Source: Bryoerythrophyllum caledonicum
Taxonomy: Eukaryota > Streptophyta > Bryopsida > Pottiales > Pottiaceae
Length of the DNA stretch: 64,000 nt
Assembly (NCBI GenBank): GCA_963971425.1
Contig: OZ020515.1
Coordinates: 4,332,678-4,396,677, forward strand
Direction: 5' to 3'
Under the pieces are notes generated by a model that made no database searches, was not told the origin of the DNA, and saw only the letters and a program-made list of their open reading frames with translations. How positions within the stretch are numbered: the stretch's first letter is position 1; every line of letters begins with the position of its first letter. Positions 3,644 through 40,681 of this stretch are shown here, one piece after another. A program made the translations under genes and the position numbers.

Positions 3644-3655
3644 TTAGAGACTACC

Positions 3656-14027: not shown

Positions 14028-14453
14028 ATGCCACATTTAACTACATCTGGACTTTAGGACAAAATCTGGACTTTGGATCAAGTATTGATATTTGAAGCAA
14101 GACCGTAAGATCCTACCAAGATAAGATTGGGACAAGGTATTGTGACTAGGAATCTAGGAATCTTCTATTTATTTGGAAGTGAGCCTAACAGAATAGGGAC
14201 AACTGTAACTTTCTTGTAGGGATGAAGTATAGAAAGGCATCAAACGACGTAGTTGGATTTGGTGATCCAAGATACATTGCTTACATAGTGGGATCCTACA
14301 GTCCACGGACACATGTAGGGGCAATGAATGTAGTGCAGAAGAAACAAAATAAGCATCCAAATAGGCGTTAAGAATGGAGGTAATAACAAGTGACTATTTT
14401 ATTCATAGAATAAATTGAACGACAACCAACGGCTGGAGAACTCAATGTAGAGA

Positions 14454-18948: not shown

Positions 18949-19482
18949 TTTGGTGCGTCCGCCGGGAGGAGCTTTTTGTTTGGTTTGTTGCTTGGAAGGT
19001 GTATGTCTTGCTGCTGGATTGCTAAATTTAGGATTTCTAGGGTTCTGAATTGTCTATTTCTGACCCAAACCGTGAGTTGAGTAGTTTTTGCCACATGTGG
19101 GGAGTGGAGTGCGCTATTGCTTGAGGTAAGTTGCTAAACCTACCTTTGTGCATGTATTCTTGTATGAGGTGTTTTGTTCAGGTTGTAATGGAGGTGGGGA
19201 GTTAGAAGGGTGTGTGGAATTCCCGACCTCCTAACACAAGCACATTGTGTTAGGCGGACCACCTTCTAACTTTTGTGCTTTGGTTGAGTAAGGGGGCTTA
19301 GGGGTGAAAGGTTGAGGCCCTCCCACGATTGCTTGAAAGCAATCAGTGAGCTTCTAAGCCGAAGAGGGAAGGTGCATGTGCCCGGGCATGGGACAAGGGT
19401 GCCCTTCCCTTCCCCTCCGAACTTGATCTACCACCAAGGTAAGGGCAACTTGTGTGTTATCGATAGCCTTGTATGTTGAATG
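18949..19482 (+). other. LTR element leader, first part (primer site onward)
   Basis: It starts with TTTGGTGCGTCCGCCGGGAG, a primer-binding-like start just inside the LTR. A hairpin formed by CCTAACACAA and TTGTGTTAGG at about 19,229-19,253 is the only structure I see. The leader is interrupted by element A and resumes at 40,158. Confidence 0.6.
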
Positions 19483-19511
19483 AACACCATATTCGTTATA
19501 TTGGGAGATTT

Positions 19512-20463
19512 AGCGACTCCCAAATTAACACATGTAGATCATAAGACCTAAAATGCACATCTAAACTCTACAATATAGAGGGATATGAGTTTCCATTAAA
19601 TTGGGAGGTAATGTTCACTACAAAAATCCCTAAAAACATGAGTACTACGGATAACATTACAAATCTAACTATAATATTGAAAAGAAGAACACATTGGTCG
19701 ACACTTCTTTCATACTACTTGTGCATTGTGCTCATTGAATATGAATATCTAAATATTCACACACGATCCTATTAACCTGGATAATCCCATGCTTCAAGTT
19801 ATCTAAAAGTGAGCTAAATGACGGACAAATATCCACTTGTAACGAATTAGCTAAACACATTTTGATGAGCCTTTTTTAATTTCAAAGAATTTCAGTTTAA
19901 CTTGTGGAATACACATTGGCTAAAAAAATATGTAACGCGTTTCAAATGATGATGTTCAGAAGTGGAAAAACAAATGCACACACATTAGTTTACTTTGAAC
20001 TAAAGTGTCCCCATCACTTAGAAGTGTAATGAACTCAAAAAGGCAATTCCACACACTTTAGCTCCACTTGACCTAAAGTGCGCACCATTACTAAGTGCAG
20101 TGAACTAAATAAGAAGATTTGCTCACACTTTAGCTCTACTGGAGCTAAAGTGTGAACCAGCATTTACTATCTATCATTCACCATGAAGGCAATTATTGGG
20201 ATTATTGGTTTCAAGATTAGAAGCAATTGACGACATTGTTATTTAAAAAAGAAAATAAACCATACTGCAAATTATCACCGGTACGCAAAAACATTAGAGA
20301 ATATTTCATCGCAATCATTGGCATCACATATGGTCGTACAGAGTGTAATCAAATACAAATATTATCTATAATCTTAGCACCAAGACATCTAACCATACTA
20401 CATGAAGTATTAAGCAGCAGAATCCAAAATCTAGGAAAAGGAAAGTCCATTGATCTAAGTCCA
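19512..20463. repeat. Left subterminal region of element A with degenerate palindromes
   Basis: There is no coding sequence. Palindromes of a looser type occur at 20,058-20,085 (CACTTTAGCTCCACTTGACC) and 20,128-20,153 (CACTTTAGCTCTACTGGAGC), spaced by 'CACCATTACTAAGTGCAGTG'. The same unit with small changes recurs at 26,140-26,330 and 28,505-28,595, so these are subterminal-type repeats related to the main array. Confidence 0.6.
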
Positions 20464-23296
20464 CTACGACTCGGACCTGGCAAGTGCTTCCAAGGAGGCC
20501 TTGATAATCGCTATTTGCCCCTTCGGAATTTTTGTAGTTGAATCTTGCACATGACCTCCATCCCTCTTTGAAGACCTAGGTTTCCATGCTGTCAAGATTG
20601 AATCGGTACTCTCCCACGTTATGGCTATCCCCTTTTCAATTGTCCAACGAAGGTTGCAATCTATATTCCAATCTTTATAGAACTTCAGAACATCCCAATT
20701 GCGCGATATAAGGCGGAAGAATTGGATACGCACGGTGTTTGGCATATCCGGGTTAGAATTAGGATCTGAAACTGCTTGAGCAATCCAAAATGGGCCCTCG
20801 TCCCCATCACAAGGCCGCAATGCAACAAAATAGCCAGCAAAAAGATCAACACCAACTCTAAAAGAAGGAGGTGGACGATCGCGTCTCTGGCCAACAAAAT
20901 GCTCATCTTCACGATACTCCTCGCGAACCTCACCCTCCGCTGAGAACTCATCTTCAATGGCATGGGCAATTCACGTCGTTGGCCAAAAGCCGTCTTCCAA
21001 TGATATCGGTGTATCCATTGGAATTATCAAAACATCTCTAACATTGCGCCAATAATACGATAGCGGCTCAAAACGTGATCTGGCTTCAACAGACTCCCGC
21101 GATGATTGCTCCCAGTGATCGATGAATCCTGAAAGTCCCTTCACCACCTCATTGAGATGCCGCATCATAGAAGGCTTCAATGCATCAGGTTCTCCGCGAG
21201 GCCATAAAGCCCTTCCTTCAGAATCCTCCTTCCACAATTTGATGCCACTACCTTCTCCTCCCTTAGGAAGCCAATCCTCATCATGACAAAGGATTTTATA
21301 CTTCATTACCGGACAACCACTAGAGTCCACATAAAACTTGAACTGATGAGCCTTCGTATGACCCTGCAAAGCTTCATCACCGTCCGCAATCATATCCCCA
21401 ATGAACTTCTTAAAGTCAGGAACCTCTTGGATGAGATGTGGGATTGTGGGAACACTCTCAATTTTTCATAAACGACCTCATGAGCAAAAGAATGGTTAGA
21501 AAACTCTCCTTCCTCAGTGTCATACTCCAACGTCCAAATAATGCGTCTATATCATCATGTGTATAACCAACTAGCATAAAATTAACATATACCTCGCGGA
21601 AGATGCGTTTTGCAACAAGGAGAGACCAAAAACAGAAAATAAATCTATTTTTGTTATCACCAACTGCATTGTCCATTTGCACGTTCAATATTGGAGGCAA
21701 AGGCCTCCCTGAAACTGGGACATCTGGAATTGGCCCTAATGGATCCAAACACATATCTACACCTCGTAATACCGCCACATACAATGGATGAGAACTAGAT
21801 TCTGGAAAGAGTTGCCGGGAAGATGACTTCGGAGGCGCCTCCAGGTCACGCAATAGTTTTGCAAACGACCCGACCGTGTAATTGGCATCATGGGAGTATA
21901 AATCAAGGCCGTAATGGGCGTAACGTTGGTCCACATGACCATGGGCAAGCATACCAGTGACTGCAAGAGGCAACTTCATAAGCCCATCTAAGTGCTTTGT
22001 TTTATGTGAAAAAATTGGGGAGGCGGTCTTTGAGTGATCCATCTTATCATGCATGATGGTTAGAACCTCCAGGGGCGACGACTTTGATCGAAATCGGTTC
22101 AGATAGTACAAGTCCCGATGTACAAAAGCTGAATCGATGTGAACCTGCATCTTCTTTTGCCATAGCAGTGATGCTTGTGTTCCAGGTTGAGTAAGCTTCT
22201 TCTGATCCTGGTATTTGTCACAAGTAGAACAACGAGCAAAGTTGTCTCCACCTTTCTTGGCATAGTACTCAGGGAAGCTCACTCGCCGAATCTTGCTCAA
22301 GCTTGAGGTTGAGATCGGCGGCAATCCACAATCAGCGAGATGATCATCAAGAAGCGGTATCTGATCCTTCCTCTTAAAACTTGAAGGTAAGACCTTTGCC
22401 ACAGCCTTCTCGCCAGATACGAGAACACAAGACTTGTGAGGCATGTGGTCCGCATGTCTATCAAGGATGGCTCCAAGAGCGGCAGTAGCCACAACCGTAT
22501 GACCTCTAGGCTTATGCAAACCGGTATTCCCATGGTGTTGAGCCGCATGACCAGCGGTAGCGTCCTTCGCATTCCGATAGAAAGTACTCGAACTTACACC
22601 CATGATTTTCATCCAAGTATGGGCACAAACGTCCACACCCTCTAGGGTCACAACCTTCCTACCCGAAGAGTTTCTATGAAACTGTCTATGAATGTCGAGT
22701 TTGATATGATTTCTAAACTGCACAATGGTCTCACTGTACAAGCGCGTCCGAAGGGCTTTTATTTTATCTCTAGGGTAGTGTTGAACAGAGTTTTGAGAGC
22801 AACAACTATTGCACGCAACTGCGTTAATGGAATGAGGAGTCATGAGGAATTCAACATTCCTGGACACTGTTGGACGAGCATTCCTTGAGGAATTGTCGTA
22901 TGAACGGGAGCTCCCACCTAGAGGTCTGTTACGCTCAACCAACCAGACATTGTAAACGTCCCTAAGGCAATGATGGAAGAGACTCACACCGTTTAAGAAG
23001 ACTTGTTGAATAGGCCAGGACTTAAACGAGTATCTCCATTCATCTGGAGCTTCCTCTTGAACAAAAGTACTGGACACCTGTACTACAACATTAGAATCCC
23101 CAAGAGGAACAGAGGAACCTAGAATTGCACTAGACCGGACATTCCGAACCAACCCCTCCGCAATGCGAACACCAAGACCATTGTGAAGCGAAACAGTCAT
23201 CCCGACCCAGAGACGGCGCGGAATAACATCAAACTCAGGAAGGTCTGGGTTAATAGGAGCGTCAACATGAACATCATCGCCCTCCGAAGACGACAT
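20464..23296 (-). pseudogene. DUF7869-like protein, candidate transposase of element A (nearly intact)
   Basis: From ATG 23,296 (MSSSEGDDVHVD) one frame runs to about 21,460. After a single-base shift (an extra A) it continues to the end at 20,464, giving about 943 codons; a TGA at about 20,971, probably from CGA, interrupts it once more. Counted from that Met: a Cys pair C356-x2-C359 (CSTCDKY), IMHDKMDHSKT with D420, LNVQMDNAVGDNKNR with D542, and VGYTHDDIDALF near residue 577. The spaced Asp residues resemble an RNase-H-fold DDE/D recombinase, and the pattern is what I know as DUF7869. The C-terminal 150 residues hold a separate GYFVALRP...GPFWIAQ domain of unknown role. An AG/GT pair at 23,297 and 23,358 suggests an intron in the 5' leader. 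The element B copy shares the whole order. Confidence 0.8.
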
Positions 23297-23580
23297 CCTG
23301 CATTCCAATAAGATAAATATTAAATAATCCTGCCAAATCAGAATGGGTGAATACCTTGTAGGAATAGACATCAACGAAGAAGCATAGGAAGTAGGAAAGT
23401 AAGCTCGCATCGAGGTAAGGTATGGCGCTTGAAAAGAACTTCCAATCGATTGAAATGACATTGTAATACAGGCAAATTTAGCTCGATTCGAGGTAAACAC
23501 ATATAGTATTATATGACAAGAATGCAATTTCATGTGATTAGTTTACATCCAAAAATAAAATAATCTCATCCTTGACAATG

Positions 23581-24032
23581 ACATTTTAGCCCGGCCCGAC
23601 CTAAAATGTTGACTATTAGACGGTATGACAATTTATCTCGAGTCGAGGAAAACAAATATAGAAAATAAGGTATGACAGTTCAGCTCGACTCGAGCTAAAC
23701 TGTATTAGCTAATATCTGATGACAGTTTAGCTCAAGTCGAGCTAAAATGTATTACCTAATATCTTATGACAATTTATCTCGAGTTTAGGAAAACAAACAT
23801 AGAAAATAAGGTATGACAGTTTAGCTCGACTCGAGCTAAACTGTATTAGCTAACATCTTATGACCGTTTAGCTCGAGTCGAGCTAAACTGCATCACCTAA
23901 TATCTGTTGACAGTTTAGCTCGAGTCGAGCTAAAGTATAGACAATAATATGTATTGACAGTTTAGCTTGAGTCGAGCTAAACTGTAGATAGTATACTAGA
24001 ATGACAGTTTAGCTCGACTCGAGCTAAACTGC
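23581..24032. repeat. Family A palindrome array upstream of the putative transposase (47-bp period)
   Basis: Ten copies, two of them degenerate, are centred on TTAGCTCGASTCGAGCTAA. From 23,676 on they begin at 23,676, 23,722, 23,769, 23,816, 23,863, 23,910, 23,957 and 24,004, almost exactly every 47 bp. Linkers are similar to one another (TATTAGCTAATATCT type). Arms outside the core stay paired: CAGTTT with AAACTG in most copies, and ACATTTTAG with CTAAAATGT at 23,581. The array lies between the transposase start and its presumed promoter, so it is in the 5' leader, perhaps in an intron. Possible roles are a binding site for an element protein or a chromatin signal. Confidence 0.85.
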
Positions 24033-24475
24033 CCTTCCGTGATTCTCGGCGTCATTTTCGGGATTCGTTTGGGAAAACTCTTCAGCCAATGAATCTGTCT
24101 CTTAGTATTTTACAATCCAAATCTTTGCGTTAGCCGTGAAGATACTCGTACTGATGCTTCAAAATCATAGTAGCAACTGGAACCAGCGCAATAACCCTAA
24201 ACACTATCACATCCTAATTGCTAGAGTGCACAGAGAATGCAAGAAGTATACATTGTGTACCTTGTGAAGAAGACAACCGGTGCGTTGTTGCCTCGCGCAA
24301 GCGCCCTACTCAACCGTGCACAACCTATAGATGTTGCCCACCTCAACCTCCGACAGTTGTACTACCTCCAAGCCTCTCCACAACAACCTTGCACAGCAAA
24401 CAAAGTGAGAAGGAAAAAATGAAGAAAGTTTTTGAGGATCGGCGAGGTCACTGACGGACACACGACCGTTTCAGA

Positions 24476-24537
24476 ATTGGCGGGAGGAAACTTCAGATTT
24501 GGCGGGAGGAAACTTCAGATTTGGCGGGAGGAAACTT
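24476..24537 (-). promoter_or_regulatory. Three tandem E2F-like sites upstream of the putative transposase
   Basis: ATTGGCGGGAGGAAAC is followed by two exact TTTGGCGGGAGGAAACTTC units, spaced 22 bp apart. TTTGGCGG matches the E2F consensus (WTTSSCSS), which in plants drives S-phase genes. They sit about 1.2 kb upstream of the transposase ATG, past the palindrome array. If the promoter is here, expression would be tied to DNA replication. This is inferred from sequence alone. Confidence 0.5.
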
Positions 24538-24682
24538 TTCCACAGCCCCTGAAAAACTGCAAATTCAAAATCTCAGCGGGAAACTGAATCAACTATTTCC
24601 CGGTTGACTAAAATAAGGAAGAGTACCTACCTCGAATTTACTCGCACATGCGAATAATATACACGGTTTTACTGTAACGCTA

Positions 24683-24800
24683 AGGGTTAGGTTTAGGATT
24701 TAGGGTTTAGGGTTTCTGGTCAGGATTAGGATTTAGGGTTTCGGGTTTGGAATTTCGGTTTAGGTTTTAGGGTTCAGGGTTTAGGGTCCTTGGTTTAGGT
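24683..24800 (+). repeat. Degenerate telomere-like repeats (TTTAGGG type)
   Basis: About a dozen variants of TTTAGGG or GGTTTAGGGTTT in one orientation, too degenerate to be a recent telomere addition. Similar patches occur in element B near 55,200 and, inverted, near 56,090-56,255. Confidence 0.7.
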
Positions 24801-26479
24801 GGAATCTTCTTATGTCATTTCATTTCAATTTAATAATACTTTGAAGGTTCATGATACTGACAATTCAACTAAGGTATAGGGAATTGTAGAGAACATATTG
24901 AGTTGATTAGAAAGAATTTGTATTACAATCCAAATAGGACTAATCGATGATGTTGAAAGCGAAGACCTCAACAAACGAGGAGCATTTAAAAAAACAAAAA
25001 AACATATTACATGTGCACGTGTATTTTGAACCAAAAACTATGTATTAAAACATGCTTTGGACATCATTTCTTCGGGGTTCAAAAAATGTGCATAATGATA
25101 CTATATTGTAATCAAATTAGTATGTTCATTCCTTTGCAAGAATACCAAGTGTCCCCATGGTCTGGATTTGGAATTGAAATTGGTTACTATCCATTTAGAG
25201 GTACTCGAAGGCTTGAAATGTGTGCAAACTAATAGTTGGATTAAAATATCTTATTCTTGAGTTCACATTGTATTATCAATTTATCATGAGTTTAGGGTGT
25301 GGCAATCTAAGCATGACATGAAAGATGGAAGAATTCTTGACCATACACAATGTATTTCATGTTTTGACGTGAAATTAAAGACTTTGTCATTTGTAAAACA
25401 TAGAGAGTGGAACAATATTATAAGATTTAAACAAAATACGGAGAGACCTCCTCATGACAAAAAAAGGATAATCAAAATATATTATATAACTAATACAAAG
25501 TGTATCACTTAGTGCATCAGGCATAATATAATGTTCGTAATGTAAGTAATTTTGAATTTATTTATACATGCAAAAAAAGAATAATAAGTTTTTGAGCACG
25601 TTCCAAAGGTTGCAAATTATATTTTAAATTCTCAGAATTTTGTAGAAGGATGATAAAAGCCATGAGGCATATTTATAAGTATTTTATTTTCTCACTGAAC
25701 GTCTTTAATAAAAATAATGCGAGCCAAGAGAGAAACTTCTTGATTGCCGACACGTCGTGCAACCTAAAAAACCTTTTGCTATGACATAGTATGGAATATG
25801 GTATTTTCAATATATAGAAGTAATATTAGAATGAATGATATTGTGGAAAAACAAGTTATTTTTCTATTGAAAAATAAGATTATATCCCAATTCATACATT
25901 TTCACACATTGTCACATATTATTGATATAGGGTACCAATAATACTTAGACTTCATATCCATTGAAGACTAGGGGATTGTTAAATTTTGTTCCTTTTTAAT
26001 TTTACTATTGGAGATTAAGGTCCACATATTTTGAAAATCCTTTTAAAATTCAAAAGATTAGTATTTCACTTGTGAAATACTTAACCATAAAGAGAAGTAC
26101 GGAGTTCAAAATGATTGTTTGAAGAAGTGGAAATACACATTGCACATACATCAGCTCAGTTTTTAGCAAAGGTGTGCACCATCACTACGTGCAATGAACT
26201 AAAAGGAGTGTGTGCACAGACTTTAGCTCCACTGGTGCTAACGTGTGCCTCATCACTAGGTGCAATGAACCAAGAAGAAAATATGCACAGTTTAGCTCTA
26301 CTATAGCTAAATTTTGCACCATCACTAAATGGAGTGGATTAGAAAGCAAAAATGCACTATGTAGCTCCAGTATATAGAAGATGGCTTCTAGTGTAGTGGA
26401 CACTAAATAGGAATCCATATAGTAATTGTAAAATTCACAATCAGTGTAGTGACAAAACTATCTAACACTAAATGTCAAC
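24801..26479. other. AT-rich interior of element A with degenerate palindromes
   Basis: No gene recognised; frames are short and motif-free. At 26,140-26,330 three looser palindrome units (ACTTTAGCTCCACTGGTGCT, CAGTTTAGCTCTACTATAGC) repeat the left subterminal pattern seen at 20,058-20,153. Confidence 0.5.
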
Positions 26480-27038
26480 TACACCGTTCACTGAATATAG
26501 TGTAGAGGTATAGGTAATGTGGATGAAAATTGATGTGGACCACATCAATTCTAGTTTTGGATGAAAATTAGGGTAGACCACATCAATTTTGGTTATTGTA
26601 TATAATATTAATATGTTATTAGTTTATGTTAATATTATGTTATTATTATATTATTATTTTATTATGTTATATTCTTATGTTAATATTATTTTATGTTATA
26701 TTATATTATATTATTATGTTAATATTCTTATGTAACTTATATTCTTATGTTATAAAATAATAATCTTATGTTATATTATGTTATTATATTATTATATTAT
26801 TATTACATTCTATTATTATCATGTTATTATATTATAATTTTGGTTTTGAGTACAATTTGTAAAGACTTATCCACAACAATTCCCGTGTCTTTTATTTTGA
26901 AACAAGCCACACTATTTCTCATGGACATGATTTGATGTGGATGGAAAATTCAAGTGGACCGCTTTAATTTGCCATTATTGAAATTACTGTAGGAAATTTC
27001 AAATAGTCTAGTCTACACTATATTCAGGGAACGGTGTA
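26480..27038. mobile_element. MITE with AT-rich (TTATTA)n core
   Basis: The left end TACACCGTTCACTGAATATA and the inverted right end TACACCGTTCCCTGAATATA match over about 26 bp with one difference. CTAAATGTCAA lies beside both ends, directly on the left and after 5 bp on the right, so it may be the duplicated target. The core at about 26,590-26,840 is a long TTA/TAA microsatellite. No coding sequence. Confidence 0.55.
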
Positions 27039-29129
27039 CTACTCTAAATGTCAATCCTAGTAAATAGTGGAGCATAAAGTTTTTTACTTGTGGACAGTTA
27101 CTGTAGGAAACCTTAATCATGATTTGATTACATCTTGAGCATTCTAGTAAAGAAGGGTTTAGTGCATGTAGAAAAACGAGAATTTGCAAGAATGAGCTTG
27201 GGGATAATTGGACGTAGGTATGGAGCAAAAGGAAAATATCAAAAATTGGACAGAGTAGAATGTAAAATATGGAGGGAAAATGAAACTACAAGTAGAAGAT
27301 AAGAACATTCTTCTGGTAACGAAAATGAGGAAAAAAAGGAATATTGGAAAAGGAAAAAACATAAACATACAATAAATATAGAAATACAAGTAAAATACTC
27401 ATTAGATATCCATCACATATGCATTCAATGTGAACTACATATTCAGTAAATATTCATTACATACTCATTGAATATTCAAATACACAATGATTTTACATTA
27501 GAAATTTATGCACTATTCATTAACTCTTCATTAACAGTACATTAAATACCCTTTAAATAATCATTAAATATACGAATATTAATTAAACTATCATAAATTA
27601 TAGTTTTAAAACTTCAAACATTCAATAAATAATGTTTAGATTTTCTTTAAATATTCTTTAATTAAAAAGTTACAAATATACAAATATACATGAATTATCC
27701 TATAAAAAATCATTACAAAGTCATTAGTTATTAGCTAATATGATTACACATTATATATTCATTAGAGAATATTAAATGATGAAAAGGAAATAATGCAAGA
27801 GATGGGAATGAGAATAATTGTGGATAAGATGATAAGAAATTGAGGTTGAAGATGAGACGAAGAATAAATGCCTAGCGACCGGTATGCAGAAGTTTCTGAT
27901 CTAATACTATTCATTGAATATTCAAGTTTGTGTGCTAGAGTAGAGTTTTGTTTGAAGGCTATTACGAAATGAACTGCAGTAGGTGAACGAATGAGGGATA
28001 ATATTCAGGACAATGGTGGCTAAAAATAGTTCCCAGATTGTTGACATATAGTGTATTAGAAAAAGCGAATCTCCACGGTGGCAAAGGGACCGGGTTGCAA
28101 GAATAAACACGGTAAAGCCCACTCCGCGAGGCGTAGGCTGGTGTCTCGGCACAATGAATTGGCGGCGCCGGTTCTTCTAAACAATAAATTTACGAAAAGT
28201 ACAGGGGACACCAAAACTCCTCGGGAGCATGTGTTCAATCATGTAATGACATGAGGGAATTTTTAAAAATGAATAAAAACCCCCAAAACAATTAGCCTAC
28301 TATGGCGTTAGTGCTGGGAGCTGGCGTTCCCTCAGAGTGGCCAATTTAGGGACAGTGCGGGGAGAAAAGGGTAACCCCCCTCCCTTCATCTCAAACTTGG
28401 GCACCTTCCCGCTGGCCTGGGAAATTCTCCGTCAGGGGTGGAGATACTCTAACTACAGTATTTGTACCGTTACTGTAAAAGCAAAATGTAGTGAAAAAAA
28501 AGAAAAAATTCACAGTTTAGCTCTATTAGAGCTAAGTGTGCACCATGACCAAAGAAAATATGCACACTTTAGCTCCAATAGAGCTAAAGTGTGCACTGGC
28601 ATTTATTTTAAATTTATACAATTGCAAGATGTGGTCTTAACATACTTATTGTATGTTCGATTCTCATAGTAAATAATATCAAACTCGCAAAAAAGCAAAT
28701 CTTGAATTAAAAGTAATAGAATCTTAAAATCGTAGCTTTAAAACTCTCTTAAGTGTGCTTAACCTAGAAACTGGTGTAGGAGGAACTTATATATATCGAT
28801 GATAACGAATTTACTCCTTGTGTAAAGCAGAAATTGAAATCGAGTCAAATAAAAGCCTGCTGATCCACTGAAAGCATTAAAGAAAACTAATCACTATAAC
28901 ACTAAACACTAAAAACTAAATCTGACACTAACACTAGAATCGTTAACTTCTATGCAATCCAAGTTTGTGTATTATTGAGAAAATGTCAATTTAAAAGTTA
29001 TAATTTAGATCATACGAATGAAATTGGAAAGAATCACTTTTCCTTAGCCAGCTGCTTGTTGCCCCCAAAATAAAAAAAAATTGTAGTGTAAATGGCTCAG
29101 ATAAATTGTGCAGGAAAATAACGAGTACA
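27039..29129. other. AT-rich interior of element A with a GC-rich relic
   Basis: 27,039-28,050 is simple AT-rich DNA. 28,055-28,455 is abruptly GC-rich and ends GGTGGAGATACTC-TAA, which resembles a PIF/Harbinger terminus, but I could not find a convincing partner end. Two degenerate family A palindromes follow at 28,505-28,535 and 28,562-28,592. No gene. Confidence 0.45.
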
Positions 29130-30660
29130 TACAGTGACAAACAAAACTGAGTACAGTTTTTACTCACTTCCTTTCAAAAAATCATACCATGAATATAGGT
29201 GGGCAAAACTGAAATGTGTACAAATCAAAGTTGTAGTACATGATGTATTAAACAATGCTGGAAAGTTTGAGGTGGAGTTGAATTGTGGTTTGGAAGATAT
29301 CAAATGCCAAAATAGAGTGCCTTCATACTCACTTTTGTTCAAGATTTTTATGAGAGCTTTCAAAATATACAGAATTTAGAATGAAGCCAATTTTCTTTAG
29401 TGTTGTCTTTATGGTATTGTAAACCATCATCTTGAACATGTGTATGCCTTTCATCAATGGAAATCAACCTTTGTGTGCTTGAGATAAATCTCAAATTGTG
29501 GAAAATAGGTGTTTTCTTGTGAGAATGGCATTTGATAATCCTTTGTAGAATTGATAGCATGGAATATTAGTGGACATCATAAGTGGCAAACGTGAATCAA
29601 TATTGGCCATTATTGCATGTATTTCATTTTGTATTTGAATTTTTTTAGTATTCAATAAACTCCTTTGTAAACTTGATTATTTATTTTGGAATGATGTGAT
29701 AGTTTTCTTCTTCGACCAATTTTAAGTGACAATGCTCATCAATGGAAGCTTTCCATCCACCACTTTCATTTCACTTACTTGCATTTTGATGACTTTGTAT
29801 CATAAAATACTCGACGCTCCATTTGGCCCCTTCTTTGATTTTCATACCAAAAAAAGTTTTAATTGCATTCTTGGTATATATTGATGTTATTCTTCTTATT
29901 GAACATCAATATATACCAAGAATGCAATTAAAACTATTTTTGGTATGAAAATCAAAGAAGGGGCCAAATGGAGCGTCGAGTATTTTATGATACGAAGTCA
30001 TCAAAATGCAAGTAAGTGAAATGAAAGTGGTGGATGGAAAGCTTCCATTGATGAGCATTGTCACTTAAAATTGGTCGAAGAAGAAAACTATCACATCATT
30101 CCAAAATAAATAATCAAGTTTACAAAGGAGTTTATTGAATACTAAAAAAATTCAAATACAAAATGAAATACATGCAATAATGGCCAATATTGATTCACGT
30201 TTGCCACTTATGATGTCCACTAATATTCCATGCTATCAATTCTACAAAGGATTATCAAATGCCATTCTCACAAGAAAACACCTATTTTCCACAATTTGAG
30301 ATTTATCTCAAGCACACAAAGGTTGATTTCCATTGATGAAAGGCATACACATGTTCAAGATGATGGTTTACAATACCATAAAGACAACACTAAAGAAAAT
30401 TGGCTTCATTCTAAATTCTGTATATTTTGAAAGCTCTCATAAAAATCTTGAACAAAAGTGAGTATGAAGGCACTCTATTTTGGCATTTGATATCTTCCAA
30501 ACCACAATTCAACTCCACCTCAAACTTTCCAGCATTGTGTAATACATCATGTACTACAACTTTGATTTGTACACATTTCAGTTTTGCCCACCTATATTCA
30601 TGATATGATTTTTTGAAAGGAAGTGAGTAAAAACCGTACTTAGTTTTGTTTGACACTGTA
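29130..30660. mobile_element. Foldback element: near-perfect 759-bp inverted repeat, 13-bp loop
   Basis: Bases 29,130-29,888 recur in reverse complement at 29,902-30,660 with no net insertion or deletion and only a few substitutions (for example near the tips, GAGTAC versus AAGTAC). The ends are TACAGTG and CACTGTA, so a TA target duplication is possible. Frames in the two arms are mirror images and do not look like genes. Transcribed, it would fold into a very long double-stranded hairpin, a likely small-RNA source. Confidence 0.9.
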
Positions 30661-31371
30661 AATACTACACGCACATAATATTTTGAATATTCTAGTAAGA
30701 TTAAATTGAGTTCTGGAAATTCCGGGTATCAATAACGAAGGTGTGGGGCGTCCACTGTTAATAACCGAGGGTCTCACCTCAATCTCGCAAAGGGTATCCC
30801 GAGGGTATCTCGGGAGCACCGCACGGCCATAGGGTTTCGACTTACGGCTTTAGGTGCCCCAGGAAGTACGCGACCAAATCGTGGCGCGACCTTTTGTTCT
30901 CCCTCTTTTGGTTGCTGTCCGAGTCTTCTCTTTTGTTTTGTGAGTCTTGCTGCGTAGGTTTGTCGTTGCGTCTTTGTGGTTTGTGTAAGAGTCGATATCT
31001 ACAGGGTTTGTTAAGTTCGTGTATATTCTAGCGCTGTAGTTGAGGCTTTCGTGCGCAATTTACTGGAGTTTAGGGTTTTTTTCGGATAGGGTTTGTTGGA
31101 CGTGCGATTCTGGTTGTGTGAGTTTGTAAGCACGTAGATAAGTTTGTGTATATTGTAGCGCTGGAGTTTAGGGTTGTTTGTGTGCGTTTGTGTGAGTTTG
31201 TGTGAGTAAATTGTAAGAGTTTGTGTGAGTTTGTGTAAGTTTGTGTGAGTTGCTGTAAGTTTATGTGAGTTTCTGTGAGCACGTCGACTCTGAAACGGCC
31301 GTGTTCGGAGGATTGACGTGAACGAGGAAGAAGATTTGCAGCTCTAGCAGTCGGATTTCAGAGTTTTAAAG
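30661..31371 (+). promoter_or_regulatory. Probable promoter and 5' leader exon of the ParB/methyltransferase-like gene
   Basis: The sequence turns GC-richer after 30,720. The last part is pyrimidine- and TTTGTGTGAG-rich (31,160-31,280 is a GTTTGTGTGA microsatellite). It closes at TTTTAAAG followed by GTAAGT at 31,372, a strong donor. I place the leader exon's end at 31,371. The transcription start is not identifiable by eye. Confidence 0.45.
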
Positions 31372-32025
31372 GTAAGTCAACTCATTCACTCTTGCATTTC
31401 TTTTGATAGATGTGTAGTATTGCTTTTGATATAATGTGATGAATCATTATTTATGTGTAGCATTGCTTTTCATGTATGTGTGAGCACGTAGATGAAATTG
31501 TGTATTCAATGTGCTGGTTTGAATGTGCTGGTTTGAATGTGCTGGTTCCAATGTGGTGGTTTAGAGTGGTTTGTGGTTGTCTGTGGTGATTTGTGCTGGT
31601 TTATGCTAGATAAAATGTGCTGGTTTGTGTTGGTGTCAAATGTGGTGGTGAATGATAGTTTCAATGTGCTCGTTTGAATGTGCTGGTTTCAATGTGGTGA
31701 ATTCAATGTGCTGAATTCAATGTGCTGATTACAAAGTGCTGATTTCAATGTGAATGATTTCAATGTGTTCGTTTATTTGTGCTGGTTTGTGCTGGTTTAT
31801 TTGTGCTGGTTTGTGCTGGTGTCAATGTGCTGCTTAGTGCTAGATTCAGTGTGCTAGTTTCAATGTGCAAGTTTCAATGTTCTCCTTTCAATGTGCTGGT
31901 GTCAATGTTCTCGCTTCAATGTGCTCGTTTCAATGTTCTCGTTTCAATGTTTTGGTTTCAATGTGTTGGTTCCATGTGCTACTTTGATTGATTTTGTGTG
32001 TGTGGATTTGTTATTGTTTGTGCAG
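31372..32025 (+). repeat. Leader intron made of TTTCAATGTGCTGG minisatellite
   Basis: Bounded by GTAAGT at 31,372 and TTGTGCAG at 32,025. Most of 31,510-31,980 is a degenerate tandem of about 14 bp (TTTCAATGTGCTGG and variants such as TTTGTGCTGG). No coding sequence is expected. Confidence 0.6.
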
Positions 32026-32183
32026 GACAGCTAGTTCCAGTAGAATTTGTCTGGGATTAAAGTTCATAACCAATGGCTGAAAGGTGAAACCATACTCACC
32101 CAGGCGCCCTAAACCCTGAGCCTTGAATATCATATAACGAAAGACACATATGCACAAACTGCAATAATTAGCTTTTTAATGAA

Positions 32184-32989
32184 CACAATTTAGCTCGACT
32201 CGAGCTAAAGTGGGCCCTTCATATTACACCATTGGCCACACTTTAGCTCGGGTCGAGCTAAAGAGGGATCTCCAGTGTGCTCTTTTGACTGCACTTTAGC
32301 TCAACTCGAGCTAAGGTGTGGCCCAGAGTGCACATTGGATGACAACTTTAGCTCGACTCGAGCTAAAGTGTGGCCCATTGTGCGTTTTGGCGTACAGTTT
32401 AGCTCGACTCGAGCTAAACTGTGGCCCAGAGTGCACAGTCGAGGACAACATTAGCTCAACTCGAGCTAATGTGCAACTCAATAGAGAATTCTGGAGAAAA
32501 AGTAATCATAATTTCTACACTCAAACTCAATAATTTAAACAATCTAAATCTTTTCATCAAAGCCCACACACCTTACCTCGAATCGAGCTAAACTGTAAAA
32601 CAAAGGACCGAATGCACATATCGAATACCTCCACGTTCAGACCTAATGACAATCCGAAAGTAAAAGTTGACAACGTAATCAATGACTTAACACTAGTCAA
32701 CTTCTCGTTCACCATTCACAAGTGTCGAAGAGCTTTAGTCCCGCTCCAACCACTTGAGAACCTTGAAGAGCGAGGTTCGTGAGTGATTAGAGCGTAACTG
32801 AAGCTCTTCCACAGATCTGAGTGTTGAACAAGATGTTGATGGAAATTAAAAAACGTCCAAAATGATAGACGTCCAAATTATTTTTGAAAGCGTCAGAACT
32901 TTAAAGATTTACATTTTATGGAATAGCACTTTAGCTCGAGTCGAGCTAAAAAAATCGGTTACACTTTAGCTCGACTCGAGCTAAAGTGA
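32184..32989. repeat. Family A palindrome array in intron 1 (53-bp period)
   Basis: Copies begin at about 32,184, 32,238, 32,291, 32,344, 32,396 and 32,449, then a degenerate one at 32,572 and two more at 32,927 and 32,960. Linkers contain TGTGGCCCAGAGTGCAC. Arms vary in matched pairs: CACTTT/AAAGTG, CAGTTT/AAACTG and ACATTAGC/GCTAATGT. The whole array lies inside the GTGAAA...TGTGCAG intron at 32,084-33,057. Confidence 0.85.
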
Positions 32990-34528
32990 TACCTCTCCTT
33001 CCTATCTGGATTCTCAATGCATCAATCTAATATGTTTACTCACTCTCATGTGTGCAGATCTGAGAGGGACAGGATGGTGACTCAGCTGTAGCACTTCTTC
33101 CAGCCAAAGCCCGTCGACATTGATGATGACGATGGAGACGACAACAACCACCTAGATTGCTGGGAGCTCAAGGACCCTTCGATGATTTTGAAGTGGACGC
33201 TACTGTGGGCAACCTATACGGATAATCTAGTGTTTGGTGAGACCTTCGCTGGTGATATCGCTGTACCCCAGCACATCGACTTCAAGACCAAAATTACTGA
33301 TGTTATCCACGAAGATAACGATCACGTTAAGTTGTCATGTGAGACAACCAGTAAGTCTGTAGAGCCGTATTTGTTTACTATTGTAGTGAACAACAGCTCA
33401 TCTCCCTTCTATATCAACGATTTAGTCGAATCACTCAGGGGGTCCAAGTTTGATGAAATAGTGGCTCAGATCGACCACGAAATCTCTCTAAAGTAATGGG
33501 AGACTAGTAGTGGTCAGCCACTGAAAGCAAAGGCTGTAGCTAACAAACTCCGCGTCATTCTATCAAGAATAAGTACCTTTGCCGCTCTAGATAAGGCCAA
33601 GAATATCGCGGCAAGACGCCCGATAGAGCTTTCAACGGTTTCGGGGGCCGTGACCGGTAGCGAGGATATGAGTCAAGCGTCGGTCCCAGTTAGAACACCT
33701 GGTGCAAAGACAAGTCGAAGCACCCTGCGCAATACGCTGTCTGCTTCCCCCGTCAAGAAGCGGTCAGCTGCCAAGAAGCCGGAGACATCTTCAAGAAAGA
33801 AGTCGAAGCTCGTATCAGAGGAGGAGTTAGTCAATTCGATGGCCTCTGCACTCTCGGAGCTCCCTAAGGCGCTCGGATACGGAGAGACAATCGACTACAA
33901 CAACGTCCAACAGATTTACCAGAAATTCTGGACGGAGTGTCAGAGCTGCTTCTTCAAAGGCGACAGAGAGATGAAGATCGAACTTGACGTGATGAGGTTG
34001 CATAATGCTCCTCCAGAGTGGACGATCCGTGCCTTCGAACCTCGGGGCATGGAGGAGTTGAAACATTACTACTTCCAAATGCCCGACAAGACTCAGAAGC
34101 AGACTCTTTGCGTCATGCCCAAGCTCGACGCTATGCCGACGACCCTTGAGGAGCTCAACGACTGTGACTACTACATCATTAATGGCCAGCACAGCGTTGC
34201 TGCCTCAAAGGAGATGATAAACGGCAACGTTCCGGAGGTTATGAGGAGGCACTTCCGAACATGGCAATGTTACATTGTCTGGACTCAAGATCCAGAGAAG
34301 CTGAGGAAGATATCCGTGTATTATAATCGCGTGAATCACTTGGTCTAGTTCAAGCCGACGTGGGCAACCAATATCCTTGGCTCTCGTGCTTTGTGGATCC
34401 AAGCTGGTAGACCAATGCCCAAGCACTCCGCCACGGGCGTTCGAGGGTCTCACAAGTCAGGTCGGAGAACTGCAGCTGAAATGGCCAATGACAAGAGGTT
34501 TGAGGTAATATATCTTAACCAAGGTCAT

Positions 34529-34653
34529 GCACTTTAGCTCGAGTCGAGCTAAAGTGTAAATTTGCTCTGTATCTGTACAGTCATTTGTATAGATATATAG
34601 TTGTCATTGTCTGCGCTTGGTATGCAAGTTAGCTCGAGTCGAGCTAACTTGCA
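34529..34653. repeat. Two perfect family A palindromes in intron 2
   Basis: GCACTTTAGCTC/GAGCTAAAGTG at 34,529-34,556 and TGCAAGTTAGCTC/GAGCTAACTTGCA at 34,623-34,653, the latter 31 bp and perfect apart from its centre base. The arm bases differ between the two (CACTTT versus CAAGTT) but each pairs fully with itself. The intron is 34,505-34,731. Confidence 0.85.
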
Positions 34654-36109
34654 GTATTTGGACTGTAATGGACATGTTTATATTCCTGCTTTAATTGTAA
34701 GCTCAAACGACCCTTTTTATATTCTGCGCAGCCATTTCTTAACGCGGTTCGTGAGCGATTCGCAATGATCGACGTTGCAAAGAGCCAGGCAGCGCTCAAG
34801 AAAGCCGGGAAGGCAAAGGAGCTCTCAATTACGAATGAGGTGAAGATCATCACCGCGACAGATGAGACCTTCAAGCTCTGGTCGGACGTCATCTCTTCCG
34901 CGGCGCATGGCGACCTCATCAACGTGGATTCGACTTCGATGCCCTTAGCAAAGTTCAAGGACGCGAAGTCTTGGGTGCCGGAGAAGGATGGGGTCCTGAC
35001 GCGCGAGTTCTTCAAGTTTCTCGGCAACATGACCGAAGCCGATCACGCGAAAATGTACAAGCACATTCTCAATCGATCAGGGCCATCTCGAAAACTGCCC
35101 TACCCTAAGGTGGTTATAAAGATGCCGAATTCTGCGCTGGAGGATTGCTACACAGCCCGGGACTGGGTGGATCGGAGGAAGAGGAAGGAGGTCGCTCGGA
35201 TGGAGCTTCAACTGATCAGGCCGGAGCTGGCCTTCTTCAACAGCACTGGAGGGTACAGTCGTTCAAACTGGCGGATGTTCAAGAAGAACTACAACGTCAG
35301 CAAGGCCTCAAAGCGTGCCCTCTTGGATTGGGGACCACCGGATTCGTACTACGCAAACTCGAGGCAGACGCAGTTTTGCAAGTGCAAATGTGAAGATCTT
35401 TCTCCGTATGCAAAGGAGTTCTTCAGAGTCTTCATCGATGTGCGGTCGCGGTTCGTTGCACCTATTGGAGCCCTGCACTTCCGTTCTTACAAGGCGGCAA
35501 CGAATTCGCTCGGGACGTGGCCTTCGGATTCGTGGCGCAACCTGGGGTGCAATGTGAAGCTCGGCATCATCGACTTTCGGAACATCCCTGGATTCTCTAT
35601 GACGGCAACGTCGTCGTTGGAGAGGCCCTTCTTCGACGAGTTCATGACGATGTTCGCATCAAAAGGGCAGCCTCCCCTCACCAATCTTCCAGCCTGGCTC
35701 TTCATTTGCGGCAACGAGCAGTCGCACCTTCAAGTGACAACGTTTGCTGAGGACCCGTCCTTGTGCCATGCGTACGATTTTCTGCAGTCAAAGTATCTTC
35801 CCTCCGAGAACGAGCGCCTGCGAGGTTACCAGCCAAAGACCAACAACGCTGTCGACCCTGTTCGGCTCCTCTTTCTCTTCAAGAAGGAGCTTACGGTGAT
35901 CCCGGCCGTTAAAAAAATCTACGCACCACCAGAGCATGTGTTGTACACGAAGCTGCGCAAGTACAACGAGCTGGCGTACTCCATGAATTTGAACGAACTC
36001 AGGATGGAGTTCTTCATCAAGGTCCTCGAGCTGTTCTGCAAGAGGGGGGATTCTGTTGTCCAGCTATTTGGCGGGACGAAATTATTGACTGCGAGTGGTA
36101 AGAATCCCT

Positions 36110-36345
36110 GCAGTTTAGCTCGAGTCGAGCTAAACTATTGATACCTTTTCTGACTCGTGCATAGTTACAATGAGGTCATGTCTATGCTGTTGCGTGACAC
36201 TTTAGCTCGAGTCAAGCTAAAGTGTCGGCTTTTACTTGTGTATTTTCCAGAAGTCATCAACTGCGTTCGTATCCTTTATAGCTGTAATAGCTGAGTTTTT
36301 GTGCCAGCATTTGATTGAATTGAGTTTAGCTCGACTCGACCTAAA
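36110..36345. repeat. Three family A palindromes between the methyltransferase-like and FCP1-like genes
   Basis: At about 36,110-36,137 (CAGTTTAGCTC), 36,196-36,226 (GACACTTTAGCTC, paired to GTGTC) and 36,318-36,347 (imperfect). The first two lie within intron 3; the third lies after the predicted stop at 36,294 and before ATG 36,376. Confidence 0.8.
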
Positions 36346-36375
36346 TTGAATCTTGTTCAACCCATTGGTGTGTAG

Positions 36376-38747
36376 ATGTTGGACCTGGAGGCATTCTGCA
36401 TTTCCCACGACACCGATGAGCAGGATCTCGACGACGCCTATGAGGTCGCGTTGACGTTGGATCGGGCCGATTTCGATGTTTCTGCGTATCACGTCAACGC
36501 GGAGATCTTCCCCGAGCTTGGAGAGGCCGTTGGAAAGGGGAAGGAAAAAGCCATTGTTGACCTCGGCAAAGAGGAGGAAGATGCGGAACCGAGCGTTGGG
36601 ATTACGTGCCCGATCTCGAGCACCGCTACTCCGGAAAATGAGTCCCAGGACGACTTTGTTGACGCTACTCCGCCTGAATATCAGAGTGCCTCTCAATCTG
36701 AAGCAGGAGACGCAATCGCTTCCTCGCGACAACGACTCGACTTCCCGGAGTTGGATTCGTTGGAAATTTCCGACAGGCCTCATTCAGCTCCTACCTTGGG
36801 CGCCTCATCCGCTCGTCCGGCGGCCAAGAAGAGGAAGGTCGCCAGCGGGAGCGGACGCTCTCCGTTGGCTGTTGCGAGCAGCGCTCAGGATGACAGCAGG
36901 TTGATCTCCCTTGAGAAGAAGCTCAAAGAGGAGGCCACCCGAATGAGGTTGATGGAGCAGCGGCTGGCGGAGCGCGACGAGGAGCTCAGGGATCTGCAGC
37001 GGAGGCGTGACGATGAAATGAAGAGGGACCAAGATCAGAGGCATGCCGAGATGATGCTCATGATGCAGAGATTCATGTCGGCTAATTTGCCTGCTGCCGT
37101 CACAACACCACCCGTAGTTAATGCTGCGATCCCCTTGCCTCCCGCCTCACCGGACGGCGGGTCTGGGAGTTCGTCTCGCGATTTGCAGCTACCATCTCCG
37201 CCGGGTACCTCCCCCGTCTCCAGTGGGGCTCAATTGCTTCATGTTCTCCCATCCCCTTCGATCCGTCCCTCTTCCCCCCCGAAGTCGCCCGCTCGGGACG
37301 AATCTATCCATGATGTCCGCAGCTCATCGTCAGGTTAGTGTAACGTAGTTGCGAGTGTACATAGGCAGAACATTTTGTAAATGTCCAATTTTGTACTCCA
37401 GTATTTTTTTGTTAATATTACAATGCCGGGCGAGCACTTTAGCTCGACTCGAGCTAAACTGCTTGAATTCTAACCGCTGTAACTGCGTTGTGTCCTCTGT
37501 GCGCATCCTCTGATAGGGTGCAGTTGTTGAAATTTTTCAGATCTAAGTTTCGGTGATGACGCGATTGCTCACCCAGTCATAGATGAGGTCGTCCAAACTG
37601 CAGTCCCAGTCATAGAAGAGGTCGTCCAAGTTTCAGCCATGCTCGTAGACGAGATCAATCATGATTCTGCTGTCCCGGAGCCTCCTCTTCTTGTCCCAGA
37701 ACCGTGCCCTCACATGGATGTCGGCCACTGCGGATCCCTTGACATCATGTAGGGTTCGTTGGGATCGATGGGTGCCCGAGACGAAATACTGCAGGACGAT
37801 GAAGTTCTCGAGGTATTCTTCTAACTCTTTTCGAACTCCACTCTTTTCCCATCACTCCTTCCCCCATTTACCTCTTTCGTTCTACGTATTGTTGATTTGT
37901 CGTTGTTAATGAATCTGTAGTAATATTGGTCGTTCTCCTGGCGTTTCTGAACCAGGTCGGCGAGGCATCAATAAGTGGTGCCAATAATTTAGAAGAAATA
38001 CCTAGAGTCCGTTCTGATTCCGAGGGCAGGTGGTTAAATATTGTGCTGGACCTCAATGGGGTTCTATGCACGTGTGAGCCGTCGTGGCAGGCCAGAGGGT
38101 CCAGGAACTCAATCCCGTCCATTCACTCGGCTTCGCTGCCGGCCGAACTAGGCCCTAAACTAGTTCGAGTGCGCCCTGGTTGTGCTGAGTTCCTCACGAA
38201 GTTGTCTAAGATTGCCACCATCACGATCTGGAGTTCGATGATGGAATCTACAACACGTCAGATATGTCAATATCTTTTTTAGCATAATTCTTCGTACCCT
38301 CTCAGGATCTTTGGTCAGGAGAGTTGCGATAGGGTTCCCGAGCGTAGAGTCGGTAGCAGAACAATCTACATGAAGGAGTCTGGCACTCAGAAGGACATCT
38401 TCTTGAAGACCTTATCGAGCCATCTCTTCAATAGGTTGGGTCGTGAGTATACTCCGGCAAATATGCTTGTCATTGACGACAGCCCGATTAAGCACATGCT
38501 CAATTTTCCGGAGAACGTCCTTCTTCCATCATGGTCGCACAAACATGTTGGCGCGAGAGACGATTCTGTATTGTTGGAGGAATTGTTGCCATATCTCTTT
38601 GACCTTCAGGAGTTTCCGGGTGGCCTAGCACAATACTGGGCCGAACATCCCTCTAGCCGGGAGATATTTTATAATGATCAGAAGACGTGTGGTCGGTCCG
38701 TGAGTATCTGGAACGCAATCCAAGCCTATCAGAATCTCCGCTCTTAA
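36376..38747 (+). pseudogene. Acidic/coiled-coil protein with C-terminal FCP1/NIF HAD domain (element A, three exons)
   Basis: Exons 36,376-37,333, 37,541-37,812 and 37,956-38,747 join in frame (phases 1 and 0), about 673 codons. The N-terminal part is acidic; a basic KKRKVASGSG stretch (nuclear-signal-like) precedes a coiled coil of about 70 residues (EKKLKEEATRMRLMEQRL onward) and a Pro/Ser-rich linker. The last exon holds the HAD domain: IVLDLNGVLCT (motif I, D then N), ITIWSSMME, MLVIDDSPIKHML and LLPSWSHKH. FCP1/SCP relatives dephosphorylate Ser on proteins such as the RNA polymerase II tail; Asn at the acid/base Asp should weaken or abolish this. Stops at about 37,749 and 38,280 both read TAG where Q fits. 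An AG acceptor sits just before ATG 36,376, so it might instead be spliced to the gene before it, though the phases do not fit. Confidence 0.75.
37434..37463. repeat. Family A palindrome in the first intron of the FCP1-like gene
   Basis: GCACTTTAGCTCGACTCGAG followed by CTAAACTGC; the core is perfect and the outermost arm bases are mismatched. The intron is 37,334-37,540. Confidence 0.8.
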
Positions 38748-39040
38748 TTCCATTGGAAACGCTTAGATGCCTATTATACTTTAGGTCGGATAGAGCTAAA
38801 CTGTATCGATTGACTGCAGCTCGATTTTGTAAATTTTGTAGGACCAGTTTTTGTGTATATTTTTTTTTATAAATGAAATTGAGATGTTTCACCACTTTGT
38901 TTGTTGTGGGGATTGGATACCTACTGCTGATGGAATGTCGTGTTATTTTGAATGATTTGAATTTTCATCTATTGTTCTAAGGTATGTGAGTGTCGCTGTG
39001 GTTAAAATTTCTACAAGGCTGTGAGTGTCGGGCGTCCATG

Positions 39041-39866
39041 GATTCCTTGCTGGGCCCAGAGGAGTTCGTCCTTTCTCTTCGGAGTAAAGGGCTTTTGTTG
39101 CACTCTGCTGCAACCGCGCAATCAACCATGGATTATTCGACCATGGCAGTGGACGACGGAATTGTTGAGAGCCCTATTGCGCGGGAGCCAATTCATGAAA
39201 GGAACAACTCACCTTCGCCGCAGTGGCCTCGTTCAGTTCTTGGGTCCCCGCCTTTAAATCCGGATAAATGTACTCTAGCAAAGCGTATTCTCTATGACGG
39301 TTTAAGGGATGGTACTTCCCAACGCTTGCTTGCGGTGTGTGTTGTGATGACCTCCAATTTATTGCAGTATTGAGATGTTTTGGCCTAGACAATTTTGGTT
39401 TGTTGTTGAGCTACATTGCACTAATGTAGTTTTGGTTCATTTGAGGTTGTTTTTTTTGTTGGAGGTTAAATGTGCTCTGTGGATCTTTCCTTCTGCATTT
39501 TAGCTCCATTCGACCTAATTTGCGCTAGGATGTATCTTAATGATTCAATTTTCATGTGTGCTGTGTAGGATTGTTCGACCTAAAGTGTATTTCTTTGGAT
39601 TGTGTGTGGCGCCTACTGTGCAGGAACCATCCGTTAAATGTCTCCGTCCCCGTACTATCTCAGGAAATGCTGCTAGAGGCAAATGCTCTCCTTCCTCCAC
39701 CCGCCGGCACTCGCTGCCCAAATCAAACAGTGACGAGGTGCGTAGGCGGAGTTTGCAGCGTCTTCTTGAGAGTCCATTAATGCAAGAGAATGGCGCAACA
39801 TGGACAAGGCAACGTCAGAGGGCTTTTTTGAAGACGCGTATAGAGGCTTATGGTGGAACTCCGTAG
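39041..39866 (+). CDS. Small basic protein, two exons (element A), function unknown
   Basis: Exon 1 is 39,041-39,334 (MDSLLGPEEFVLSLRSKG onward) and exon 2 is 39,624-39,866, joined in phase 0 across GTGTGT...TGTGCAG; 178 codons with no stop. Exon 2 is strongly basic (RRHSLPKSNSDEVRRRSLQR, then TWTRQRQRAFLKTR), as in DNA- or RNA-binding tails. An imperfect family A palindrome sits in the intron at about 39,493, as in the neighbouring genes, which supports the model. I do not recognise the family. It is the last gene before the right end of A. Confidence 0.45.
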
Positions 39867-40157
39867 ACCATTTGATTAGTGATAGGACGATTATGTTTTG
39901 CCTCAGGGTGAATGAGTGTTGTTTGTAACTTTTTTCATGAAGTTTTGAATAAAGCTTGGAATAATGGTATATGCTTCTTTTACGGTTACCATTTTTTGGG
40001 GCATTCGGCTAATTTGGTCCATCCATGTAATGATATATAGTATTCTTGGTGCATTGTTGATATGCTTTGCACCTACAATTGTCTATATATATTGATACTT
40101 CAAAGATCATATATATTCAAAATCATGGAAATCTCCCAATATAACGAATATGGTGTT

Positions 40158-40681
40158 AATAGGATGAATGTCGTATACATGGAATGGTATGCATGTTGAA
40201 GGGGTCGTGAGGAAGGAGCACAACATAAGGTGAGTATACAAACCTTCCTCACTACACCAAACCCTACACTAGACACTTAAATTCGGTTAGGGATCGAACA
40301 GGGAAGGTGAATTTGCAGCCAGGTACGTTCTCCCCTTCTTAATGAATGAATTATGATGAACCAATGAAGGATTTTTTTGTACATGTTGGTGTCGTTTCTC
40401 TTAAGTTGGTAATGCCACCCGTTGGAGAGAAATTGGGGATACCTTGATACCAAGGAGAAACCTCCAGGTAGGTGGTAAGCCCAACTAAGAGTCTGTATCG
40501 TATGGAGCATAGTGGGTATACCTCGTCCGAAGGTTAGCCCTACATGTAATCTTCTGTTTTGTTTACTTCCCAGCATGGGGGAGTTTGGGAGAAACTCGGG
40601 ATCATTTAAAGTCAATTATTTGTATTTACGAAATGTCTTCACATAGGTCTAGAAAACTAAGAACGGCAACTTAATCGTTAG
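40158..40681 (+). other. LTR element leader, second part
   Basis: Sequence between the right end of element A and the gag start. No gene; it contains the expected untranslated leader only. Confidence 0.6.

Follow-up and report, generated by a model that had tools for sequence, protein, structure and literature searches.

A giant DUF7869 element in the moss Bryoerythrophyllum caledonicum, probably of the Sola superfamily, and its dispersed family-specific dyads

In published descriptions, Sola is a plant superfamily of elements with a DDD transposase and 4-bp target duplications (PMC10741241, PMC9033089), the terminal inverted repeats (TIRs) spanning 11-1124 bp and the sizes being mostly 2-9 kb, with some above 15 kb (PMC10741241). 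Members, Sola1 included, are present in the moss Physcomitrella (PMC9033089); in Ectocarpus, the 21.5-kb Sola1-1_Ec32 has a gene with ParB-like and N4C/N6A DNA methyltransferase domains on the strand opposite to its transposase, and giant EnSpm elements of red algae and giant KDZ elements of fungi, the latter with accessory genes, are also described (PMC12477816). A further point of comparison is given by the VANDAL elements of Arabidopsis, in which VANC proteins bind motifs that are particular to each family and recur in introns, between genes and in terminal non-coding sequence, and act against silencing (PMC5735166). A stretch of 64,000 nucleotides from the moss Bryoerythrophyllum caledonicum (here, the window) was found to carry a unit of 20,675 bp at positions 19483-40157, designated element A, which includes a gene for a DUF7869 protein. 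With moderate confidence, A is read here as a giant moss cut-and-paste transposon, probably a Sola of the Sola1 type, the present copy having presumably been moved in trans, with dispersed dyads as putative binding sites.

Element A, its gypsy host and its genes

An initial annotation of the window had proposed perfect 29-bp inverted ends at 19483 and 40157, and these are present (29/29 bp). Element A sits in the leader of a gypsy long terminal repeat (LTR) retrotransposon, between the 5' LTR (16184-18948) and gag-pol (40682-46563), and this gypsy copy, which has gag, reverse transcriptase, RNase H and integrase domains, itself interrupts a second DUF7869 element, family B, the order of nesting being A inside gypsy and gypsy inside B. 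The features that define A and its surroundings are the following.

19479..19482, no strand: candidate 4-bp target duplication, left, AATG, 3/4 identical to AATA
19483..19511, + strand: left TIR of element A, 29 bp, 29/29 against 40129-40157
20470..23296, - strand: single-exon DUF7869 gene (predicted DDD transposase), PF25273 E 2e-32, tblastn with the homologue P0001 82% and 75%
40129..40157, - strand: right TIR of element A, 29 bp, 29/29 against 19483-19511
40158..40161, no strand: candidate 4-bp target duplication, right, AATA, 3/4 identical to AATG
16184..50042, + strand: gypsy LTR retrotransposon hosting A and interrupting B, LTRs at 16184-18948 and 47308-50042

The two gypsy LTRs differ by 11 substitutions over 2733 aligned sites (0.4%, gaps left out; 98.3% identity by BLAST with gaps counted), and the flanks GCTAT and GTTAT match at 4/5 positions by inspection. 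At plant substitution rates of ~7-9 per billion sites and year, the gypsy copy would be about 0.2-0.3 million years old. Because A lies within a retrotransposon with LTRs so little substituted, A would be younger still, unless the LTRs have been homogenised, and would have moved recently. The gypsy around A, the full span of B and the dispersed palindromes described below do not appear in the initial annotation.

The presence of a DUF7869-like protein in the unit was confirmed by the PF25273 match, and the predicted fold agrees with the recombinase role first proposed for it. The model of the homologue P0001 has an RNase-H-like core with Asp residues at the expected positions, the candidate catalytic residues being D420, D542 and D584 in P0001 numbering, and transposases or integrases occupy 47 of the 50 rows of its VIA structural table, with Z below 8 throughout; the other three rows are Pol II, MutYX and Argonaute entries. 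Foldseek with the same model gave no match at E <=0.001 in PDB and BFVD, the best PDB match being an Argonaute MID-PIWI chain (E 2.6e-3). The reading of the fold uses P0001, the model of the truncated open reading frame (ORF) of the window (pLDDT 52.6) having been set aside. A predicted RNase-H-like core with an acidic triad, encoded in a unit bounded by TIRs (29/29 in A, 27/28 in B), is the arrangement of DDE/D TIR transposons, and the DUF7869 protein is likely, on this model, a DDD transposase; a Pfam family of unknown function would thereby gain a likely transposase role. No other family, and no other transposase family, reached the cut-off in a Pfam scan of DUF7869 proteins, a PDB sequence search with DUF7869 returned nothing significant, viral-contig scans gave no relative, and a literature search found no paper containing the word DUF7869.

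The sole relative from one genome-contig scan is L001, a contig of 4.3 kb (1-4327) with a DUF7869 gene at 75% identity; the ratio of nonsynonymous to synonymous substitution rates (dN/dS) between A and L001 is 0.12. L001 is filed under a cyanobacterial record (uncultured Synechococcales, AVDCRST_MAG81) despite its moss-type DUF7869, and is apparently a contamination of a cyanobacterial assembly. DUF7869 genes are also carried by Physcomitrium patens.

The remaining genes of A are listed below; gene 2 designates the three-exon gene.

33074..34507, + strand: gene 2 exon 1, with a basic region, the ParB-like motif IINGQHSVAAS and premature stops (codons 6, 141, 425)
34508..34734, + strand: gene 2 intron 1, 2 dyads (34533, 34628), splice signals by eye
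34735..36098, + strand: gene 2 exon 2, weakly methylase-like, 38 homologues
36099..36375, + strand: gene 2 intron 2, 3 dyads (36114, 36201, 36325), splice signals by eye
36376..37338, + strand: gene 2 exon 3, acidic, resembling a nuclear localisation signal, coiled coil, by eye
37896..38747, + strand: NIF/FCP1-like HAD gene, PF03031 E 1.1e-9 and 4.5e-5 (two ORFs), one in-frame TAG
38990..39866, + strand: small basic protein gene in two exons, from ORFs by eye

This copy of A is damaged. Its DUF7869 gene is disrupted twice, by a frameshift near 21465 and by a TGA in frame near 20971, and together with three stops in exon 1 of gene 2 and the TAG of the NIF-like gene this makes five stops in ~8.2 kb of coding sequence, all five of which a C-to-T change could explain by inspection. 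Because five stops exceed the expectation for so young an insertion, the defective A was probably moved in trans by the proteins of an intact relative. Broken transposase genes that imply such help are also a trait of giant Sola1, and help in trans has likewise been inferred from them for the giant elements of Ectocarpus (PMC12477816).

Family B and the placement of A

The initial annotation held that a second family repeats the core of A, and a second DUF7869 element with inverted ends agreeing at 27/28 bp is indeed found; 14028 and 62224 are taken as its ends.

14028..14055, + strand: left TIR of element B, 28 bp, 27/28 against 62197-62224
14715..15104, - strand: second NIF-like fragment of B, PF03031 E 0.06, below cut-off
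52809..53171, - strand: NIF/FCP1-like fragment of B, PF03031 E 3.4e-7
57608..61255, + strand: DUF7869 gene of B, decayed, with a dyad-bearing intron, from tblastn and alignment
62197..62224, - strand: right TIR of element B, 28 bp, 27/28 against 14028-14055

The own DNA of B amounts to 14,338 bp, split by the gypsy. Its DUF7869 pieces share 24-36% identity with five moss relatives (tblastn), and the NIF-like protein of A finds the two fragments of B with E 0.004 (52809-53171) and 0.002 (14715-15104). The layout of B mirrors that of A, with DUF7869 in the right part, the NIF-like sequence toward the left part and both pointing outward. Queries with A's own exons and with 8 of the 38 relatives turned up no homologue of gene 2 in B. 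The TIRs, the nesting, this mirrored layout, the predicted core and the dN/dS of 0.12 support the original proposal that the unit is a giant DNA transposon carrying cargo beside its DUF7869 recombinase.

Within B, two short stretches at 50782-51861 and ~55401-55535 have similar ends, TTTAACCCCTAARAGCCCAA, the first being flanked by TTAA; by eye they look like miniature inverted-repeat transposable elements of a TTAA-targeting family. Close to the 3' boundary of the apparent DUF7869 intron of B there is an imperfect hairpin with 86-nt arms (59202-59422). To the left of B, the ORF 7984-8661 encodes a Harbinger-like transposase (Plant_tran E 2.3e-67, DDE_Tnp_4 E 5e-12).

The same annotation regarded the unit as a candidate new superfamily, which the comparison with Sola does not support. 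At 4 bp the flanks are AATG/AATA for A and CCCT/CCTT for B, identical at 3/4 positions in each case, and B also has CCT/CCT at 3 bp. Among lengths of 3-10 bp, only 4 bp gives at least 75% flank identity in both elements, and in trials with random positions 0.4% showed such agreement at one length or another. Both A (29-bp TIR, 20,675 bp) and B (28-bp TIR, 14,338 bp of own DNA) fit the size and TIR range printed for Sola. The strand layout of A, with an accessory gene opposite to DUF7869, is as in giant Sola1, the PF01555 matches, seen in 2 relatives of this gene, being below cut-off and a ParB hidden Markov model (HMM) match being absent. A resembles the Sola1 elements described from Ectocarpus and Physcomitrella in its predicted DDD transposase, giant size, opposite-strand accessory gene, moss host and possible 4-bp duplication, and differs from those of Ectocarpus in that ParB and methylase are only weakly indicated in the moss gene 2 and that a FCP1/NIF-like gene is added. 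Given a moss host, and a size, a layout and 4-bp flanks, albeit imperfect ones, that fit Sola, A is quite probably a member, and DUF7869 would be the Sola transposase, Sola being compared in both cases through published descriptions rather than sequence.

That DUF7869 elements form a separate superfamily without relation to Sola is considered unlikely. It would accord with the standing of DUF7869 as a Pfam family of unknown function named in no paper found, with the lack of any other Pfam family above cut-off in the scanned proteins and with a Sola likeness drawn from descriptions; against it speaks the match with printed features of Sola in host group, DDD pattern, near 4-bp flanks, range of sizes and the accessory gene on the opposite strand. 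In passages of PMC7466625 on Physcomitrium DNA transposons, Mariner-like elements are named and Sola is not, and the words Sola and moss are absent from PMC6431247. A single copy with the ends of A was seen, and gene 2 is multi-exon, as might be expected of host sequence or an unrelated gene cluster caught between inverted copies of a small repeat; the position inside a young gypsy, the confinement of the dyad to A and the repetition of the layout in B make this explanation highly improbable.

Other named groups agree less well. EnSpm/CACTA, KDZ and PIF/Harbinger elements share inverted ends with A, but the scanned DUF7869 proteins have no Pfam match to another transposase family, and the ends and flanks agree poorly with these groups. 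EnSpm/CACTA elements have CACTA-like ends and a 3-bp target duplication; the TIRs of A and B start with AACACC and ATGCCA, and 3-bp flank identity is 1/3 in A and 3/3 in B. The TTAA target of piggyBac and Kolobok is not seen in the flanks (AATG/AATA and CCCT/CCTT), and was dropped for A, where it requires a shortened TIR and then leaves the mismatch TGAA/TTAA. VANDAL elements are Mutator-like. A target duplication of 7-12 bp is described for Mutator-like elements (PMC10741241), and at these lengths the best agreement was 5/9 in A and 3/8 in B.

Dispersed dyads and a possible binder

With up to 5 mismatches, the dyad TTTAGCTCGASTCGAGCTAAA has 34 copies in the window, all 34 within A, and 20 single-base shuffles of A gave 0 or 1 matches. 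None of the 34 falls in coding sequence according to a coding map (8,199 of 20,675 bp) that is approximate, having been assembled manually on the basis of ORFs, homologues and splice signals. The copies fall into 10 clusters and so do not count as independent sites, and dyads are absent from several stretches of non-coding DNA; within the gene region of A they occur in introns and after the NIF-like gene. Two clusters lie upstream of genes.

23477..24028, no strand: cluster of 11 dyads upstream of DUF7869, 10 of them at 47-bp spacing
32189..32985, no strand: cluster of 9 dyads upstream of gene 2

Half-sites of this dyad are present outside A too. At the same limit of 5 mismatches, L001 has 7 dyads in its 1.5 kb of flanks and 0 in its 2.8 kb of coding sequence, counted without a shuffle control. 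B has a dyad of its own, GTAGGATCCTAC, with 11 exact and 5 one-mismatch copies, 16/16 in B's own DNA, its half-sites being likewise found elsewhere. Viral-contig scans with the dyads of A and B gave no relative. Nine of the 38 gene 2 relatives, by pattern, and a tenth (P0072), by eye, read past the end of exon 2 with dyad-encoded peptides (FSSSRAK, LARIEL); the pattern was written after the tails had been seen, and many other relatives stop before or soon after the exon 2 end. Among 125 DUF7869 proteins the same pattern has a single match, which lies in the N-terminal extension of P0014.

A family-specific repeated non-coding motif, partly in tandem and different between families, is what is described for VANDAL and VANC (PMC5735166), the VANC21 motifs having 9 bp and one orientation, unlike the dyads of A, which are ~21-29 bp. 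The dyads are likewise specific to a family, and those of A and L001 are non-coding. The portion of PMC12477816 on Sola1 makes no mention of dispersed dyads. Within the literature searched, the dispersed family-specific dyads look new. No VANC-like gene was identified.

Because the sites are dyads, they suggest a dimeric binder. The competing explanation, that the dyads are hairpins (as RNA within introns, or as cruciforms in DNA) or arose incidentally when template switching made near-palindromes perfect, is possible though doubtful, and the pairing of the arms was weighed on the 34 copies of A and the 7 of L001. The outer arms vary between copies yet pair within a copy: at 11 bases from the centre 24/41 copies are paired, with four pair types, against 12.5 in shuffled sets, and after removal of 9 tandem copies 19/32 are paired against 10.2. 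In the full set nine of 25 arm positions reach p <0.05, uncorrected, and the shuffles ignore the relatedness of the copies, which weakens the case for hairpins. In the core, the bases at distances 4 and 7-9 from the centre are paired in 39/41 copies with one pair type each, which a pure hairpin would not require.

The mechanism proposed for A, with bound dyads, is as follows. The DUF7869 DDD transposase would excise the 20.7-kb unit at its 29-bp inverted ends and insert it at a target of presumably 4 bp, the chemistry being likewise presumed, and the broken copy would be mobilised by the proteins of an intact relative. A protein encoded by the element would bind the 34 dyads, which lie in introns, upstream of genes and elsewhere in non-coding sequence, and binding would keep the element expressed or marked, as VANC does on VANDAL. 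Gene 2 would be the first candidate for the binder, because ParB proteins bind dyads. The candidacy also follows a published suggestion that accessory proteins of the ParB-methyltransferase type may bind the element that encodes them and modify it (PMC12477816). That gene 2 would be the only binder is made less likely by B, which has dyads and no visible gene 2; the binder could be DUF7869 or another protein.

A wider picture is put forward tentatively, by analogy: giant Sola-like moss elements would tag themselves, an own protein, possibly derived from ParB and methylase, binding a family-specific dyad, recurrent across introns, intergenic DNA and promoters, in the manner of parS and keeping the element open, marked or clustered, with a separate protein-dyad pair for each family (A and B), as a plant counterpart of VANC made from prokaryotic-type parts. 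Candidate DNA sites are offered by the dyads for the ParB-methyltransferase accessory proteins of giant transposons, and self-targeting by transposons becomes testable in the tractable DUF7869 carrier P. patens.

Accessory genes of A

The coiled-coil, FCP1/NIF and small basic components of the initial annotation were recovered, as was, with a weak signal, the methylase-like one, its separate ParB/methyltransferase and coiled-coil parts being read here, by eye, as one spliced gene. The ParB label of gene 2 exon 1 is our assumption from the motif IINGQHSVAAS, gene 2 giving no match to a ParB HMM. Exon 1 also has a weak HTH_Tnp_Tc3_2 match (E 0.005, below cut-off), and this stretch could be a DNA-binding part. 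For exon 2, PF01555 (N6/N4 DNA methylase) was matched by 2 of 29 aligned relatives (E 0.0035 and 0.029, both below cut-off) and not by the exon of the window itself. The catalytic motif of N6/N4 methylases is DPPY; because DFRNIPG appears in its place by eye, gene 2 may have lost methylase catalysis. A PDB sequence search with exon 2 gave nothing significant (two arginine methyltransferases had E 0.27 and 0.34, and a TNF-induced protein had 0.3), nor did searches with exon 1 and the NIF-like protein; a viral-contig scan with gene 2 found no relative, and PHROGs (three proteins), phage DNA and Rfam at gathering scores gave nothing. The gene 2 relative P0062 and the DUF7869 relative P0082 lie on contigs of a common size, 224,779 bp, which is suggestive only, the comparison having been made by eye with one contig per cluster among the best 120 of 651 hits.

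FCP1-type phosphatases have DxD at the first HAD motif. In the NIF/FCP1-like proteins this motif reads DLN in A (37896-38747), DLN in B (52809-53171) and CVN in B (14715-15104); since DLN replaces DxD, phosphatase activity is doubtful, which suggests inactive or altered phosphatases in A and B. The first exon of the small basic gene had no Pfam match.

Inside A there is also a near-perfect hairpin of 1.54 kb (29124-30666), with 765-nt arms differing by 9 substitutions over 765 aligned sites and a 13-nt spacer. It contains no dyad copies, is perhaps a later insertion or an inverted duplication, and is a possible source of small RNA. Ahead of gene 2, GT-rich tandem arrays with 14-bp spacing extend over 31498-31992.

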